Part shown: in pieces, positions 7,552 through 23,567 of the stretch
Layout: each line of letters begins with the position of its first letter
Position numbering within the stretch: position 1 is the first letter of the stretch
Origin: a virus
Virus record (IMG/VR): IMGVR_UViG_3300006947_000061
Coordinates: 1 to 28,606 of that record
DNA length: 28,606 nt
Reading direction: 5' to 3' (one strand)
The notes under the pieces: generated by a model
Told to the model about the DNA's origin: nothing
The model's database searches: none
The model's input: only the letters and a program-made list of their open reading frames with translations
Position numbers and translations under genes: made by a program

Positions 7552-7935
7552 ATGACTTGGCTCAAAGAGGTAAAGAAATTAGACGCGGTATTTAGCAGAT
7601 ACATTCGTTTAAGTCGTGCTGACGAAAATGGAATAGCGACTTGTATCACGTGTGGCTGTAAGAAACCGTGGAAAGAACAGCAATGCGGTCACTTCATGTC
7701 GCGCTCTCATTACTCTGTTAGGTTTGACGAGTTAAATTGCGATGTGCAATGTGTCAAGTGTAATATGTTTAGGCAGGGAGAGGGTTATATATTCTCAATT
7801 CGATTAGACGAGAAGCACGGAGAAGGGACGGCTGAAATGCTTTATCAGAAATCCAAGCAAAGCCATAAAATACCAAAGGAAGAGTTGATTGAAATGCGTA
7901 AGGAATATCAAAAGAAATTTGATGGACTGCATTGA
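7552..7935 (+). CDS. ninG: NinG/Rap-like recombination nuclease
   Basis: 127 residues. Cys31/Cys34 (CITC), Cys45-x-His47 (CGH), Cys63, Cys67 and Cys70 (CVKC) form the zinc ligands seen in lambda NinG (Rap), a branched-DNA/Holliday-junction endonuclease family related to HNH proteins. GHFMSRSHYSVRFDELN is the conserved centre. The family usually is longer (about 200 residues in lambda); the shorter form is common in Bacteroidetes phages. First gene after the terminator. Overlaps the sigma-like gene by 14 bases if that starts at 7922. Confidence 0.8.
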   Translation: MTWLKEVKKLDAVFSRYIRLSRADENGIATCITCGCKKPWKEQQCGHFMSRSHYSVRFDELNCDVQCVKCNMFRQGEGYIFSIRLDEKHGEGTAEMLYQKSKQSHKIPKEELIEMRKEYQKKFDGLH

Positions 7936-19601: not shown

Positions 19602-19618
19602 ATAAAAAATGGCACACC

Positions 19619-19633
19619 TTTATATCTATAAAT
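19619..19633 (+). promoter_or_regulatory. TTTATATCTATAAAT box, copy 2 (before protease)
   Basis: Fifteen bases identical to those at 26627-26641. The box ends right at the ATG of the protease gene. If it holds a -7 element, transcription would start about at the ATG, giving a leaderless message. It opens the head module. Confidence 0.5.
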
Positions 19634-20599
19634 ATGGAACGTAAACTCGTGGAACTTTTAATTCTGGAGGACGGAAATTATGGCGTTGATGCCGTGAGTT
19701 TGGTTAAGCACCCTGCTATTGAGAGTAATTGGATTTATATGTCGAAAGACGATAGGAAACAATTCATTTCTCTAGCTATGATTGACGAAGAAAAGCGAAC
19801 CGTTATCGGGGCTGCTTTAATTCCAGACAAGCATATACCACGGTACGATAAGTCAACGGACGAAGAGTATGACGTATACTTCTCTGCTGAGACTGTACTT
19901 AGGGCGAGTGAGTTGTTCTTGCAAAATAATTACGTGAATAGCGCAACGCTTGAACACGTAGAAAATACTAAGGGTGTCTCTGTTGTTGAGTCATGGATTG
20001 TAAGTGACCCAGACAACGACAAGTCCCGTGTTTTTGGTTTAGACGTACCGGTAGGTACTTGGATGATTCGCGCGAGAATTGACTCTGACGAAGTGTGGGA
20101 AAGTGTTAAGTCAGGAGAATATCAAGGATTTAGTATAGAAGGCTTTTTCGCAGATTCAATTCAAAAAATGAAAGCAGAACCAAAACTCAGCCTTGAAAGC
20201 ATGGTGCGTAAACTGTACAATACACTTGTGAAACGTAAGTTTTACGTTGAGGCAAAACTTAATGACGGTTCTGTAATTGCATCGGAGTCGGGGGAGTTCT
20301 CAGCAGGGGTAGAAGTTTATAAAATTGGCGTAGAGGGATTACCCGTTGAAATTGATAACGGTCAATACGAAACTACTGGAGGCGTAAAGTTTGAGGTCTT
20401 CAATAACGTACTGATTGAGTACGACGGAGAGGTCCAAGCGGTGGAAGAAAAGGAAGCGGAAGCGGGTGAAACACCTATTGAGATTGACATGAGCGCAATG
20501 AGGGTTAAGTATTACGCTCACCTAATGAGAAATAAATACGCCAAGAAGTTAGAGAAAGTAGAATTAAGTCGTATATTGAGGGAAAGCGTTACACACTAA
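19634..20599 (+). CDS. Prohead protease, XkdF-like
   Basis: 321 residues. The N-terminal strand ELLILEDGNYGVDAVSLVKHPAIE matches the G-V-x-A-x-S-L-V-x-x-P-A-I opening of XkdF-like phage proteases. His108 (ATLEHVE) and Ser167 (GFSIEGF) are the likely catalytic pair, with VVESWIV and PVGTWMIRARI between them as in the family. It matures the prohead by cutting scaffold and capsid proteins. The C-terminal ~140 residues carry an added beta domain with an acidic linker (VEEKEAEAGE) and a basic end. A TTTATATCTATAAAT box lies before its ATG. Confidence 0.8.
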   Translation: MERKLVELLILEDGNYGVDAVSLVKHPAIESNWIYMSKDDRKQFISLAMIDEEKRTVIGAALIPDKHIPRYDKSTDEEYDVYFSAETVLRASELFLQNNYVNSATLEHVENTKGVSVVESWIVSDPDNDKSRVFGLDVPVGTWMIRARIDSDEVWESVKSGEYQGFSIEGFFADSIQKMKAEPKLSLESMVRKLYNTLVKRKFYVEAKLNDGSVIASESGEFSAGVEVYKIGVEGLPVEIDNGQYETTGGVKFEVFNNVLIEYDGEVQAVEEKEAEAGETPIEIDMSAMRVKYYAHLMRNKYAKKLEKVELSRILRESVTH

Positions 20600-20610
20600 C
20601 CAACAGAGAT

Positions 20611-20775
20611 ATGAGAGATAGCGAAGAAGTTAGAAGCACGATTGCGGATGCAGTTTTGGCAATTGATAAATATTTGGATAGGAACGCTGAGTTCATGAGC
20701 AATGAAGATTACAGAACTTGCGAAGAATTTGTCTTTGCGGCAGGTGATGCTCGACGCGCATTAAAGGGCTACTAA
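20611..20775 (+). CDS. Small acidic array protein 1
   Basis: 54 residues, mostly helical (RSTIADAVLAIDKYLDRNAEF, then CEEFVFAAGDARRALKGY). Net acidic. First gene after the protease and first to carry the 11-base linker. No family recognised; the linker makes it a real member of the array. Confidence 0.7.
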   Translation: MRDSEEVRSTIADAVLAIDKYLDRNAEFMSNEDYRTCEEFVFAAGDARRALKGY

Positions 20776-20786
20776 ACAACAGAGAC

Positions 20787-21005
20787 ATGAGAAGTTATAT
20801 TTTTGTAGAAGGCGCAGGCAAAGCTGAAATTATGAATGCGATGCTTGATGAAGGTTACACCATATTAGAGTGGTCTTTTATTGTTTTTGACGCAGTAGAA
20901 GTTTCAGGAGGTACTGAATTACATTGCGAATTTGACAATAGCGTAAACGCGCAAGACTTTATATTCGAGTTAGAGAGAGCAGGCTTTTATGTTGAGGGAA
21001 AATAA
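20787..21005 (+). CDS. Small acidic array protein 2
   Basis: 72 residues with the order strand, helix (GKAEIMNAMLDEGY), strands (SFIVFDAVEV, TELHCEF), helix (NAQDFIFELERAGF) and strand. The same order is visible in array proteins 3 and 5, which suggests a distant common origin. Net acidic. Linker variant ends GAC. Confidence 0.7.
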   Translation: MRSYIFVEGAGKAEIMNAMLDEGYTILEWSFIVFDAVEVSGGTELHCEFDNSVNAQDFIFELERAGFYVEGK

Positions 21006-21016
21006 ACAACAGAGAT

Positions 21017-21259
21017 ATGAAATTATTTGATTTAGTAAATGACTTTCGTGATGAAGTTCGTGATAGCGATATTACTTGGTGGGATGATTATTTAGGATGT
21101 ACTATATATATCCCTCGAATAAATGACCGAGATTATTACGCTATAATTGATTTCGCAGATGAGTTACGGGACATGGGACACAAGGTTGATTTAATGCAAA
21201 ACCTTGACGACGATTACGACGAATTGGAATCGGTTGAAATGGACGTTTACCCAAACTAA
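21017..21259 (+). CDS. Small acidic array protein 3
   Basis: 80 residues with 23 Asp/Glu against 7 Lys/Arg, a net charge near -16, and an end of LDDDYDELESVEMD. Such charge and many surface Tyr/Trp resemble DNA-mimic proteins. Order helix-strand-strand-helix-strand as in array proteins 2 and 5. No family recognised. Confidence 0.72.
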   Translation: MKLFDLVNDFRDEVRDSDITWWDDYLGCTIYIPRINDRDYYAIIDFADELRDMGHKVDLMQNLDDDYDELESVEMDVYPN

Positions 21260-21270
21260 ACAACAGAGAT

Positions 21271-22077
21271 ATGGCATTTAAATATTACTCAGCTTTAAAC
21301 GCTGCTAGTGGTGACCAAACGTTACCGCTTCCGATGACTTTGCACAACAACAACGCTGCAACCGTTAGCATTGAAGTTACCCCAGAAGGGGGTGGTTTAA
21401 TCTTTCAACCTTTTGGAACAACTCCTAATGTTCTTTCAAGTATGGTAAAGCTACCGACTTTAAAAGCTGCTCAAGCCGCAACTACGTATGATACCACAAC
21501 AGATAGTCAAGGTTTGGGAGCCACAGTTTCAATTACCACGACTAATGTAGGTAACGGTAAATTTGCTGCTTTCCCTGCATCCTCTACTTTAACAGCATCA
21601 GGTGCAGCAATAACACCATCAACGACTTACATACCTTCTAGTAATGGTACAGGTGGAGGCTTTGAAGTTACTTTTACGCAGGCAACAACGGGTGCTTTTG
21701 CTCCAACTGATGTATCAATTGTTAAGGCAGGCTCAGGATACGCTATAGGCGATGTGTTAGAGTTTGACGTAGGAGGGGTAACCGTAACTGCTATTGTAAC
21801 CGTAGATTGTTTTACTGCTCTTTTTCAACCAACGGCTGCCACTATTGTTAGTAGTGGTGACAATTACAGGGCGGGCGATATCTTAAACGTAGTTATGACG
21901 GAAACAGTAGCGGATGTCGTTTACAATTATCCAGTAACGTTTAATGTGGAAGGGGCTGCTTTGGTTTCTACGTTCATAACGTATAGCTTACTTACCGGAG
22001 AGACAACGCCAATGCGAGCGTCTATTTTTAAAGTGCTAGGAACAGACGCACGAAGCATTCTAGCCAACTCAAACTAA
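21271..22077 (+). CDS. Beta-rich virion-like protein inside the array
   Basis: 268 residues, Thr/Ala/Gly-rich, with little charge, unlike its neighbours. Two related beta hairpins, IVKAGSGYAIGDVLEFDVGG and IVSSGDNYRAGDILNVVM, follow a GGFEVTF strand. The G-x-G-Y-x-x-G-D pattern occurs in phage structural and decoration proteins. Carries the standard linker. It could be a capsid decoration or fibre protein. The contrast suggests either a structural gene around which the array grew, or one that joined it. Confidence 0.6.
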   Translation: MAFKYYSALNAASGDQTLPLPMTLHNNNAATVSIEVTPEGGGLIFQPFGTTPNVLSSMVKLPTLKAAQAATTYDTTTDSQGLGATVSITTTNVGNGKFAAFPASSTLTASGAAITPSTTYIPSSNGTGGGFEVTFTQATTGAFAPTDVSIVKAGSGYAIGDVLEFDVGGVTVTAIVTVDCFTALFQPTAATIVSSGDNYRAGDILNVVMTETVADVVYNYPVTFNVEGAALVSTFITYSLLTGETTPMRASIFKVLGTDARSILANSN

Positions 22078-22088
22078 ACAATAGAGAT

Positions 22089-22328
22089 ATGAACGTAACA
22101 GAAAGAGAATTAGATGCCTTTATTGACGAAGTAGAACGTCTAGGTTATGTTGTGGAATACGGAAGTATTCTGTCGTATGGAACTGCTGAAGTAGTAATCC
22201 ATAGAAACGGAGCGCGTGACCCATACGAATTTGGGTATGACATTAGACAAATTGTATCGGATTTAGGGTTTCGAGATTTTGATATGCACAGCGAGTCGAT
22301 GGAAACTATTGTCATAGAATTATTCTAA
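22089..22328 (+). CDS. Small acidic array protein 5
   Basis: 79 residues. Helix (ERELDAFIDEVERLGYVVEY), two strands (SILSYGTAEVVIHR), helix (YEFGYDIRQIVSDLGF), strand. Looks like array protein 3 (DFRDEVRD.. / DFADELRDMGH) and protein 2. Net acidic. Linker variant ACAATAGAGAT. Function unknown. Confidence 0.7.
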   Translation: MNVTERELDAFIDEVERLGYVVEYGSILSYGTAEVVIHRNGARDPYEFGYDIRQIVSDLGFRDFDMHSESMETIVIELF

Positions 22329-22339
22329 ACAACAGAGAT

Positions 22340-22558
22340 ATGAGAGGTGAAAGTAACGCAGACTACGAACTGAATCTAATTAAAAAACAAGCACAAGATT
22401 TAACGTCTACGCTTGAAATTTTATTGGAACACTTTTATACTGAAGTTGATAGAGGGGCTGGATATGAAGCTGAACAAGCAGCGGAAGGCATAGAAGAATT
22501 AATTGAACAGACTGAAGGCATACACGAGCAAGCCCGATATTACTACCGCTCATTTTAA
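22340..22558 (+). CDS. Small acidic helical array protein 6
   Basis: 72 residues, all helix, rich in Glu and Gln (LTSTLEILLEHFYTEVD, then EQAAEGIEELIEQTEGIHEQARYYYRSF). Probably a helical hairpin or dimer. No strands, so it is a different fold from proteins 2, 3 and 5. Exact consensus linker. Confidence 0.7.
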   Translation: MRGESNADYELNLIKKQAQDLTSTLEILLEHFYTEVDRGAGYEAEQAAEGIEELIEQTEGIHEQARYYYRSF

Positions 22559-22569
22559 ACAACAGAGAT

Positions 22570-22848
22570 ATGGAATTTGATTACGATATTTTTTTAGATG
22601 AAATAAATGAATTCATTTATACGGTAGAGTCAATGGGGTTTTCTTTAGGGTATTGGGACGAAGACGATAAAAAGATAAACTTCACGGTAACTGATTTCTA
22701 TATGATGGGTCTAGGGACTGATGAGCAGATTCGGTTTTTAGAAAAGGCAGCCGAAGACGTTTGGGGGCGCAAACAATTTATTACTGAGGCACGTTCACTA
22801 GGTTCCACCAATGAGATAGTAGTTCAGTATACCGATTGGTATATGTAA
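22570..22848 (+). CDS. Small acidic array protein 7
   Basis: 92 residues. Acidic and aromatic: FDYDIFLDEINEFIYTVESMGF, then YWDEDDKKINFTVTDFYMM, then a helix and a final strand. The start resembles the helix-G-strand opening of array protein 5. Exact consensus linker before it; after its stop there are eight extra bases before the next linker core. Confidence 0.7.
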   Translation: MEFDYDIFLDEINEFIYTVESMGFSLGYWDEDDKKINFTVTDFYMMGLGTDEQIRFLEKAAEDVWGRKQFITEARSLGSTNEIVVQYTDWYM

Positions 22849-22867
22849 ATTATCAAACAACAGAGAT

Positions 22868-23101
22868 ATGATTACAAAAGACCAATGGTTGTCAACTGCT
22901 CGTGATATGGAAGGAGCCGTTTTAGAGTTTATCGTAGTTGATACGGGCGAGGTAATTGAGGTACGTGAGGAGAATGGCAATTGGGAGCGTTCAGACGGTT
23001 ACGGTGGTCGTATGGGTCACGTTCAAGTGTATGAAATTCGAGACGATTTAGAAGATGAGTACGGGGAAGTCGTTTTAGATTACATTAGTTACAGCTACTA
23101 A
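22868..23101 (+). CDS. Small acidic array protein 8
   Basis: 77 residues. Beta-rich centre (GAVLEFIVVDTGEVIEVREENG), Gly-rich loop (SDGYGGRMG), acidic end (IRDDLEDEYGEVVLDYISYSY). Tyr/Asp/Glu-rich tail could mimic DNA charge. No family recognised. Its linker core is preserved although the upstream stop is not adjacent. Confidence 0.7.
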   Translation: MITKDQWLSTARDMEGAVLEFIVVDTGEVIEVREENGNWERSDGYGGRMGHVQVYEIRDDLEDEYGEVVLDYISYSY

Positions 23102-23110
23102 ACAATAGAG

Positions 23111-23389
23111 ATGAGAACAAACCTATATATCAGTAAGGAAAGGAAGTACGATTTACTTTCGGCTTTGCTCTTAGAATATGGCAAAGACCCGTCTATTGGT
23201 CAAGATAGGTTTGAGTTCATAGAACTCCTCGCTGAAATTACAGCGTCGTTTTTTTCTGATGAAGGGATGTCTGCACTAGAAGCTATTGACTACGTGGAAG
23301 ACAGCGTTAGTTATATGGGCATAGGATTTGGCCGAGAGGATTATATTGACGATTTCCTATCGGATTTGGATTACATAAGAAGAGCATAA
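23111..23389 (+). CDS. Small acidic array protein 9
   Basis: 92 residues, helical. The C-terminal half is strongly acidic (EAIDYVEDSVSYMG, REDYIDDFLSDLDYIRRA). Linker is the shortened ACAATAGAG, which abuts ATG. Last gene with a clear linker. Function unknown. Confidence 0.7.
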   Translation: MRTNLYISKERKYDLLSALLLEYGKDPSIGQDRFEFIELLAEITASFFSDEGMSALEAIDYVEDSVSYMGIGFGREDYIDDFLSDLDYIRRA

Positions 23390-23393
23390 CGAT

Positions 23394-23567
23394 ATGATTT
23401 CATTTGACGGATACGAAGACAGAGGAACGACTTACATTGAGTTGTTCAACATTGAGATATACCAGCCAAGCGGCACAAACTATTGGGTTGTTCCTGACAA
23501 ACGAGGTGGGTCGGTTTGGGAATTTGATAATTTAGCGGATGCGTTAAACAAGGCAGAAACACTATAA
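23394..23567 (+). CDS. Small beta-rich protein next to ArdA
   Basis: 57 residues. Strands SFDGYEDRGTTYIELFNIEIY and a Trp-containing NYWVVPDKRGG, then a short helix (NLADALNKAETL). Similar in outline to small phage proteins with G-T-x-Y-x-x-x and L-x-D-A-L-x-x-A ends. The junction is TAACGATATG, only the last six bases of the linker kept. Followed two bases later by the ArdA-like gene. Confidence 0.65.
   Translation: MISFDGYEDRGTTYIELFNIEIYQPSGTNYWVVPDKRGGSVWEFDNLADALNKAETL

Follow-up and report, generated by a model that had tools for sequence, protein, structure and literature searches.

A 13-nucleotide linker as probable start leader and exchange seam in a modular phage cassette array

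The DNA analyzed here (the window, the whole 28,606-base virus record IMGVR_UViG_3300006947_000061, positions 1 to 28,606) contains nine consecutive genes, between 20611 and 23389, each preceded by (TA)AACAACAGAGAT-ATG. In related phages this linker is conserved in sequence, strand and spacing, the genes behind it are shuffled and pass between distantly related phages, and the breakpoints fall at its edges. We consider it probable that the linker is a leader for ribosome loading and at the same time a micro-homology exchange seam in a modular array of small gene cassettes.

Linker copies in the window

The nine copies comprise five exact ones, three with one change and a short form that is two bases shorter (Table 1). 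ACAACAGAGATATG occurs exactly at 21006, 21260, 22329, 22559 and 22857 and with one mismatch at 20600, 20776 and 22078, and the shortened linker, ACAATAGAG-ATG, stands at 23102. This mismatch scan confirms an earlier sequence-only reading, which had described nine genes with near-identical linkers, five of them exact and the last shortened. At up to three mismatches the window holds 12 matches against 3.5 expected, a count reached by none of 100 shuffles; at up to one mismatch there are eight matches on the forward strand, none on the reverse and none for a backward-read control, which excludes chance. At the latter threshold no linker precedes any further gene of the window, bearing out another claim of that reading. 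We write the linker as AAACAACAGAGAT-ATG, a 13-nt leader whose two opening A's normally close the upstream TAA, and this consensus is, as had been proposed, unlike a Shine-Dalgarno (SD) site. The core was also said to be kept at 22857 with the stop 8 bases upstream; the stop (TAA, 22846–22848) does end 8 bases before the 11-mer there, with the distance to the ATG unchanged.

The suggestion that copies past 23110 are decaying holds in part. The junction TAACGATATG, at about 23387–23396, looks truncated, two other contigs (L091 and L165) reading TAACAACAGAGATATG past the same gene end. The short form at 23102, by contrast, is not simply a product of decay, because AAACAACAGAG-ATG recurs in five relatives (G005, G008, G009, G012 and G015), before homologous and other genes.

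The prohead protease gene to the left of the array has no linker in the window and is itself linker-started in relatives; its start possibly lies 24 bases further upstream, where position 19610 opens an in-frame ATG (window 19610–19634). F5, the largest cassette gene, is probably a head gene. An ArdA-like gene forms the right edge of the array, between the cassettes and the scaffold gene. An ArdA homologue is also found in L226 (17653–18372), and ArdA is present in G012.

Table 1. Linker copies, cassette genes and flanking genes (window coordinates)
Feature	Position	Strand	Remarks
XkdF-like prohead protease	19634..20599	+	Pfam Peptidase_S78_2, E=1.9e-17; left neighbour of array
Linker copy 1 (AACCAACAGAGAT)	20598..20610	+	Upstream stop TAA 20597-20599
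Cassette gene F23, 54 aa	20611..20775	+	
Linker copy 2 (AAACAACAGAGAC)	20774..20786	+	
Cassette gene F79, 72 aa	20787..21005	+	
Linker copy 3, exact	21004..21016	+	
Cassette gene F51, 80 aa	21017..21259	+	
Linker copy 4, exact	21258..21270	+	
Cassette gene F5, 268 aa	21271..22077	+	Many relatives have F5, with or without linker
Linker copy 5 (AAACAATAGAGAT)	22076..22088	+	
Cassette gene F10, 79 aa	22089..22328	+	AlphaFold2 alpha-beta-beta-alpha-beta-beta model, pLDDT 93
Linker copy 6, exact	22327..22339	+	
Cassette gene F4, 72 aa	22340..22558	+	96% identical in G001 (TerL 54%)
Linker copy 7, exact	22557..22569	+	
Cassette gene F27, 92 aa	22570..22848	+	
Linker copy 8, exact	22855..22867	+	Upstream stop ends 6 bases before 13-mer; start spacing unchanged
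Cassette gene F52, 77 aa	22868..23101	+	
Linker copy 9, short form (AAACAATAGAG-ATG)	23100..23110	+	
Cassette gene, 92 aa	23111..23389	+	G005, G012, G015 homologues likewise with short linker
Truncated linker TAACGATATG	23387..23396	+	Compare TAACAACAGAGATATG in L091, L165
F46 homologue, 57 aa	23394..23567	+	Full linker in L022, L146
ArdA-like antirestriction gene, 248 aa	23570..24316	+	PF07275, E=6.4e-10, 40.3 bits against cut-off 27

Related phages and features of the leader

A scan for exact TAAACAACAGAGATATG returned 66 stretches from among 2.9 million viral contigs; genomes of bacteria and archaea yielded 34. Arrays of 2–11 copies (at least two near-exact copies each) lie in 48 contigs besides the window, so that the search of related phages proposed earlier does find the same linker around different genes. 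Single-copy 14-mer matches in viral contigs were treated as chance, and the bacterial and archaeal matches are single chance ones only. The one record of the genome collection with an array, L190, is a 4,977-bp contig binned with a metagenome-assembled genome and carrying the same phage genes, which makes the array a phage trait. Chimeric assembly is conceivable in principle, but several arrays are found in identical form in separate records (L069/L167/L190, L021/L132 and L141/L145).

For comparison we used the window and twenty relatives (21 genomes), the latter all metagenome contigs picked by the exact linker. Where the region is present, terminase and tape measure are followed by the protease and array and then by scaffold and capsid, with the array always between the tail tape-measure and scaffold/capsid genes. 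Terminases of the relatives are 54–60% identical to that of the window, except in G011 (100%). Three contigs have end repeats of 123–127 bases and are probably complete at 28–31 kb. The nearest terminases are those of Bacteroides and Phocaeicola phages (about 38%), the nearest protease among cultured relatives is that of the marine Nonlabens phage P12024S (39%), and an SD-like motif is present at only 5% of other gene starts; from these we infer a Bacteroidota host, probably marine. The linker array is absent from P12024S, and no cultured phage matching the major capsid protein (MCP) or any cassette tested was found.

All 135 copies of the 13-mer in the 21 genomes lie on the coding strand, 124 of them directly before an ATG and eight as the short form AAACAACAGAG-ATG; since the relatives were recruited via the linker, its conservation is somewhat overestimated. 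Spacing to the start is fixed, while the upstream stop can be displaced, as at 22857 in the window, or missing. Linkers of diverged family members are still 82–90% identical at divergences that saturate third codon positions (about 0.47), a conservation that may reflect either constraint or homogenisation by exchange, which these data cannot separate. Cassettes use TAA in 255 of 262 cases, against 278 of 478 elsewhere, a bias that fits the A's of the stop belonging to the leader and is partly built into the definition of the linker.

The composition of the leader resembles that of SD-independent start sites. In F. johnsoniae, A at −6, −12, −13 and −3 stimulates initiation, A at −3 being the best-known determinant in Bacteroidota (PMC6847099). 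The leader carries A's at −13/−12/−11, −9/−8 and −6, those at −12, −8 and −6 each present in 185 of 186 unique junctions; it thus shares the A's at −6, −12 and −13 and the lack of an SD, but has G rather than A at −3 (182 of 186). Regions around linker starts are slightly more open than those around other starts (0.61 versus 0.56 unpaired). Position and the match to these determinants make it likely that the linker is an SD-free Bacteroidota translation leader, one of the functions that the sequence-only reading had put forward.

Promoter-like sequence adjoins some arrays. TTG-N19-TATATTTG stands 5 bases before the linker in L049, L055 and G002, whose first cassettes differ, and L138 and L055 have a promoter-like region in common up to the linker, followed by different first genes. 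Two such regions ending in TATATTTG lie before linkers (one in L049, L055 and L138, the other in L021, L132, L056 and L147). A scan with the promoter consensus gave 39 sites, only three of them, all homologous, before linkers; because these may be chance, the promoter assignment is only suggestive.

Exchange at linker edges

We located breakpoints in gene pairs of at least 90% nucleotide identity with different upstream neighbours (67 pairs; 63 for downstream neighbours). The pairs are not all independent, and collapse at 85% identity or more to 44 combinations in 18 families. Across the 67 pairs identity is 0.97–0.98 in the gene and 0.94 in the linker and falls to the chance level of 0.27–0.31 immediately upstream, conservation ending with the T of TAA at position −14. 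A mirror-image drop is seen downstream. L164 and L055, for example, have F23 and F34 in common and differ between them, with a break at the linker on both sides, and in L104/L131 and L021/L056 the break is at the linker on at least one side. In the cases read, no short remnants of the former neighbour are found at the breaks.

Cassettes are also common to phages that are otherwise far apart. Pairs whose terminases are only 54–62% identical nevertheless have cassettes in common at 88–100% identity, for instance F4 at 96% with TerL at 54%, F6 at 99% with TerL at 60% and MCP at 45%, and F24 at 100% with TerL at 59%. Close relatives, conversely, differ in their arrays: G004, G005 and G012, with terminases 95–98% identical, have 2–3 of about ten cassettes in common and 9–13 other small genes, and more generally phages with TerL 93–99% identical have only 1–3 linker genes but most other small genes in common. 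The next gene is kept across 4–5% of linkers, compared with 39% for small genes without a linker and 61% for all genes without one. Judged by sequence, whole genes are swapped between phages with breaks at linker edges. These breaks, the massive turnover of cassettes and their horizontal sharing strongly support the recombination seam that had been among the earlier proposals; the linker itself would cause the shuffling.

In the explanation that we favour, each unit would be an ORF that lacks a promoter and carries a 13-nt leader directly 5′ of the ATG. The opening bases of this leader are usually the two A's of the TAA stop ahead of it. The leader would most likely be the standard ribosome-loading sequence of this phage group, in a Bacteroidota host that starts translation without SD pairing. 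Because every unit carries the same leader, each junction would supply 13–17 identical bases, and recombination between co-infecting phages could then join any cassette to any other, in register and translatable. These phages encode NinG/Rap and an exonuclease-like phosphoesterase; NinG/Rap, a DNA-junction endonuclease (window 7552–7935; Pfam E=1.3e-15) conserved across the group, is a candidate helper of cassette exchange. Against this explanation stand the G at −3 and the length of 13–17 bp, short for RecA, and no annealing protein is recognised. Recombination alone could maintain the linker, the position of the breaks between genes could come from random recombination with selection acting afterwards, low synteny may partly reflect dispensable genes, and the promoter-like site is limited to its three homologous cases.

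The most serious rival holds that the linker is purely a translation or mRNA leader under selection, with random illegitimate recombination occurring everywhere and only joints between genes surviving. It would account for the fixed spacing to the ATG, the restriction to one strand, the retention of the linker where stop or gene is missing upstream and its conservation at saturated divergence. However, non-linker junctions of small genes in the same genomes keep far more synteny (39% against 4–5%), and the breaks lie at linker edges with no former-neighbour remnants in the cases read. We regard it as unlikely.

Integron cassettes are single genes without promoters that have a short site in common and form ordered arrays with rapid turnover; a tyrosine integrase, IntI, is encoded with the array, and an attC site with inverted repeats lies downstream of each ORF. 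Were the linker an analogous site, cut and joined by a dedicated recombinase, this would explain the exchangeable promoterless single-ORF cassettes, the short identical sequence and the variable order, and some genomes do have arrays behind promoter-like sequence. Yet Pfam matches among 69 proteins, all but a few of those encoded by two circular genomes (the exceptions mainly homologues of window genes), include no integrase or other tyrosine or serine recombinase and no transposase. The linker is moreover asymmetric, without the inverted repeat or fold of an attC site, and its place is at the 5′ end of the ORF, directly against the start codon. Its variants follow neither neighbour consistently (3 of 66 and 0 of 36), a comparison that proved uninformative for locating the crossover. 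Such a system is improbable, and, no site-specific recombinase having been found in the proteins scanned, homology-driven annealing is the preferred route.

About equally improbable is an mRNA or DNA binding site through which a phage or host regulator switches all cassettes together, a role suggested for other repeats close to starts; a regulator site was also raised by the sequence-only reading. The identical sequence beside the starts of a defined gene set would suit it, as would the sigma-factor-like protein of the phage (window 7922–8566; PHROG 1740, E=9.5e-6), which is conserved in many relatives and could drive late transcription, including that of the array. But there is no palindrome, no Rfam match in the window and no known binding motif; nothing supports a dedicated site, and exchange would be left unexplained.

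Cassette families, known systems and cargo

At up to two mismatches, 263 linker copies start genes, and the 274 linker-started ORFs sort into 89 protein families arranged in 42 distinct orders. The proteins are small, with a median length of 78 aa, and acidic: their median pI is 4.05, and 98% of them lie below pI 5 versus 47% of other genes. Comparison with Pfam, PHROG and PADLOC gives almost no matches. AlphaFold models are ferredoxin-like for F3 and alpha-beta for F10, and neither matches the PDB at an E of 0.001 or better. Profile comparison of 40 families, in which one of 780 pairs reaches 50% probability, indicates that the families are mutually unrelated, as the view that the encoded proteins differ and are not recent tandem duplicates of whole genes had implied. 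Since the linkers of relatives also flank different genes, slow divergence from a single duplicated ancestor, which would have undone that view, does not describe these genes. A linker left as the residue of tandem duplication of one ancestral gene would fit the likeness of the proteins in size and acidity, but is rejected on the profile comparison as scarcely credible, and the protease and the 268-aa F5 are found as linker-started members too.

The array shuffles in the manner of integrons or of the PeSL elements of T4-like phages and resembles the start-associated sequences (SAS) of cluster K mycobacteriophages, but lacks defining features of each and belongs to none of them. SAS are 13-bp asymmetric sequences, 11–19 per genome, that stand a few bases before start codons in the non-structural half, nearly all in one orientation, and are practically absent from the host; they have the SD core GGGATAGGAGCCC, about half have an extra inverted repeat, the upstream stop may fall inside, and a role in translation is suspected (PMC3203893). 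The linker is likewise short, near starts, in one orientation and absent from the host. Unlike SAS, its consensus lacks the core GGGATAGGAGCCC, its arrays are contiguous and lie between tape measure and capsid genes, a separate copy accompanies every cassette, and the breakpoints of exchange map to its edges. As cited in PMC4503421 (Arbiol 2010, Comeau 2014), PeSL elements stand between small accessory genes and give each unit a promoter and a stem-loop. Compared with what is described there, the repeated element among small accessory genes and the modular shuffling are alike, whereas the linker is a short leader overlapping the stop, with no inverted repeat at the junctions, no common stem-loop in folds and no room for a promoter between genes, and the cassette units would share upstream transcription. 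In archaeal viruses, unrelated small anti-defence genes have one conserved upstream regulatory sequence, from which anti-defence genes were predicted (PMC11065993); that sequence is an early-gene promoter region, whereas the linker is an intercistronic leader and its operon lies among structural genes. We found no described equivalent of the linker array in the literature searched.

The neighbourhood of the array bears on its cargo. ArdA is an antirestriction DNA mimic, and because small, acidic, unrelated and rapidly replaced proteins adjoin it here, the array suggests an anti-defence island. In L076 and L097 a 544-aa ORF fuses an ArdA-like domain (27% identity to the window ArdA, E=1e-8) to the prohead protease, and in L148 a 400-aa ORF fuses an 80-aa cassette protein to it, which may hint that such proteins are packaged in the prohead. 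A more speculative picture, which we hold only tentatively, is that one 13-nt leader serves as both ribosome-loading and exchange site and rotates a large common pool of small acidic anti-defence proteins, in 89 or more families, which the head operon would produce and which would possibly be packaged and injected with the DNA; for this last step the evidence is the head-region location, the adjoining ArdA and the two kinds of protease fusion.

Phage mosaicism is usually explained as random recombination followed by selection, together with a handful of known boundary elements. In this array nearly all exchange points have one tiny element that likely serves a second function, which makes the question of built-in seams directly testable. 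As a motif, AAACAACAGAGAT-ATG also gives access to dozens of small, uncharacterised families whose members are rapidly replaced beside ArdA and are candidates for anti-defence genes, and it informs our picture of an efficient SD-free leader in Bacteroidota. With it, these phages seem to rebuild their gene kit without spoiling its expression.
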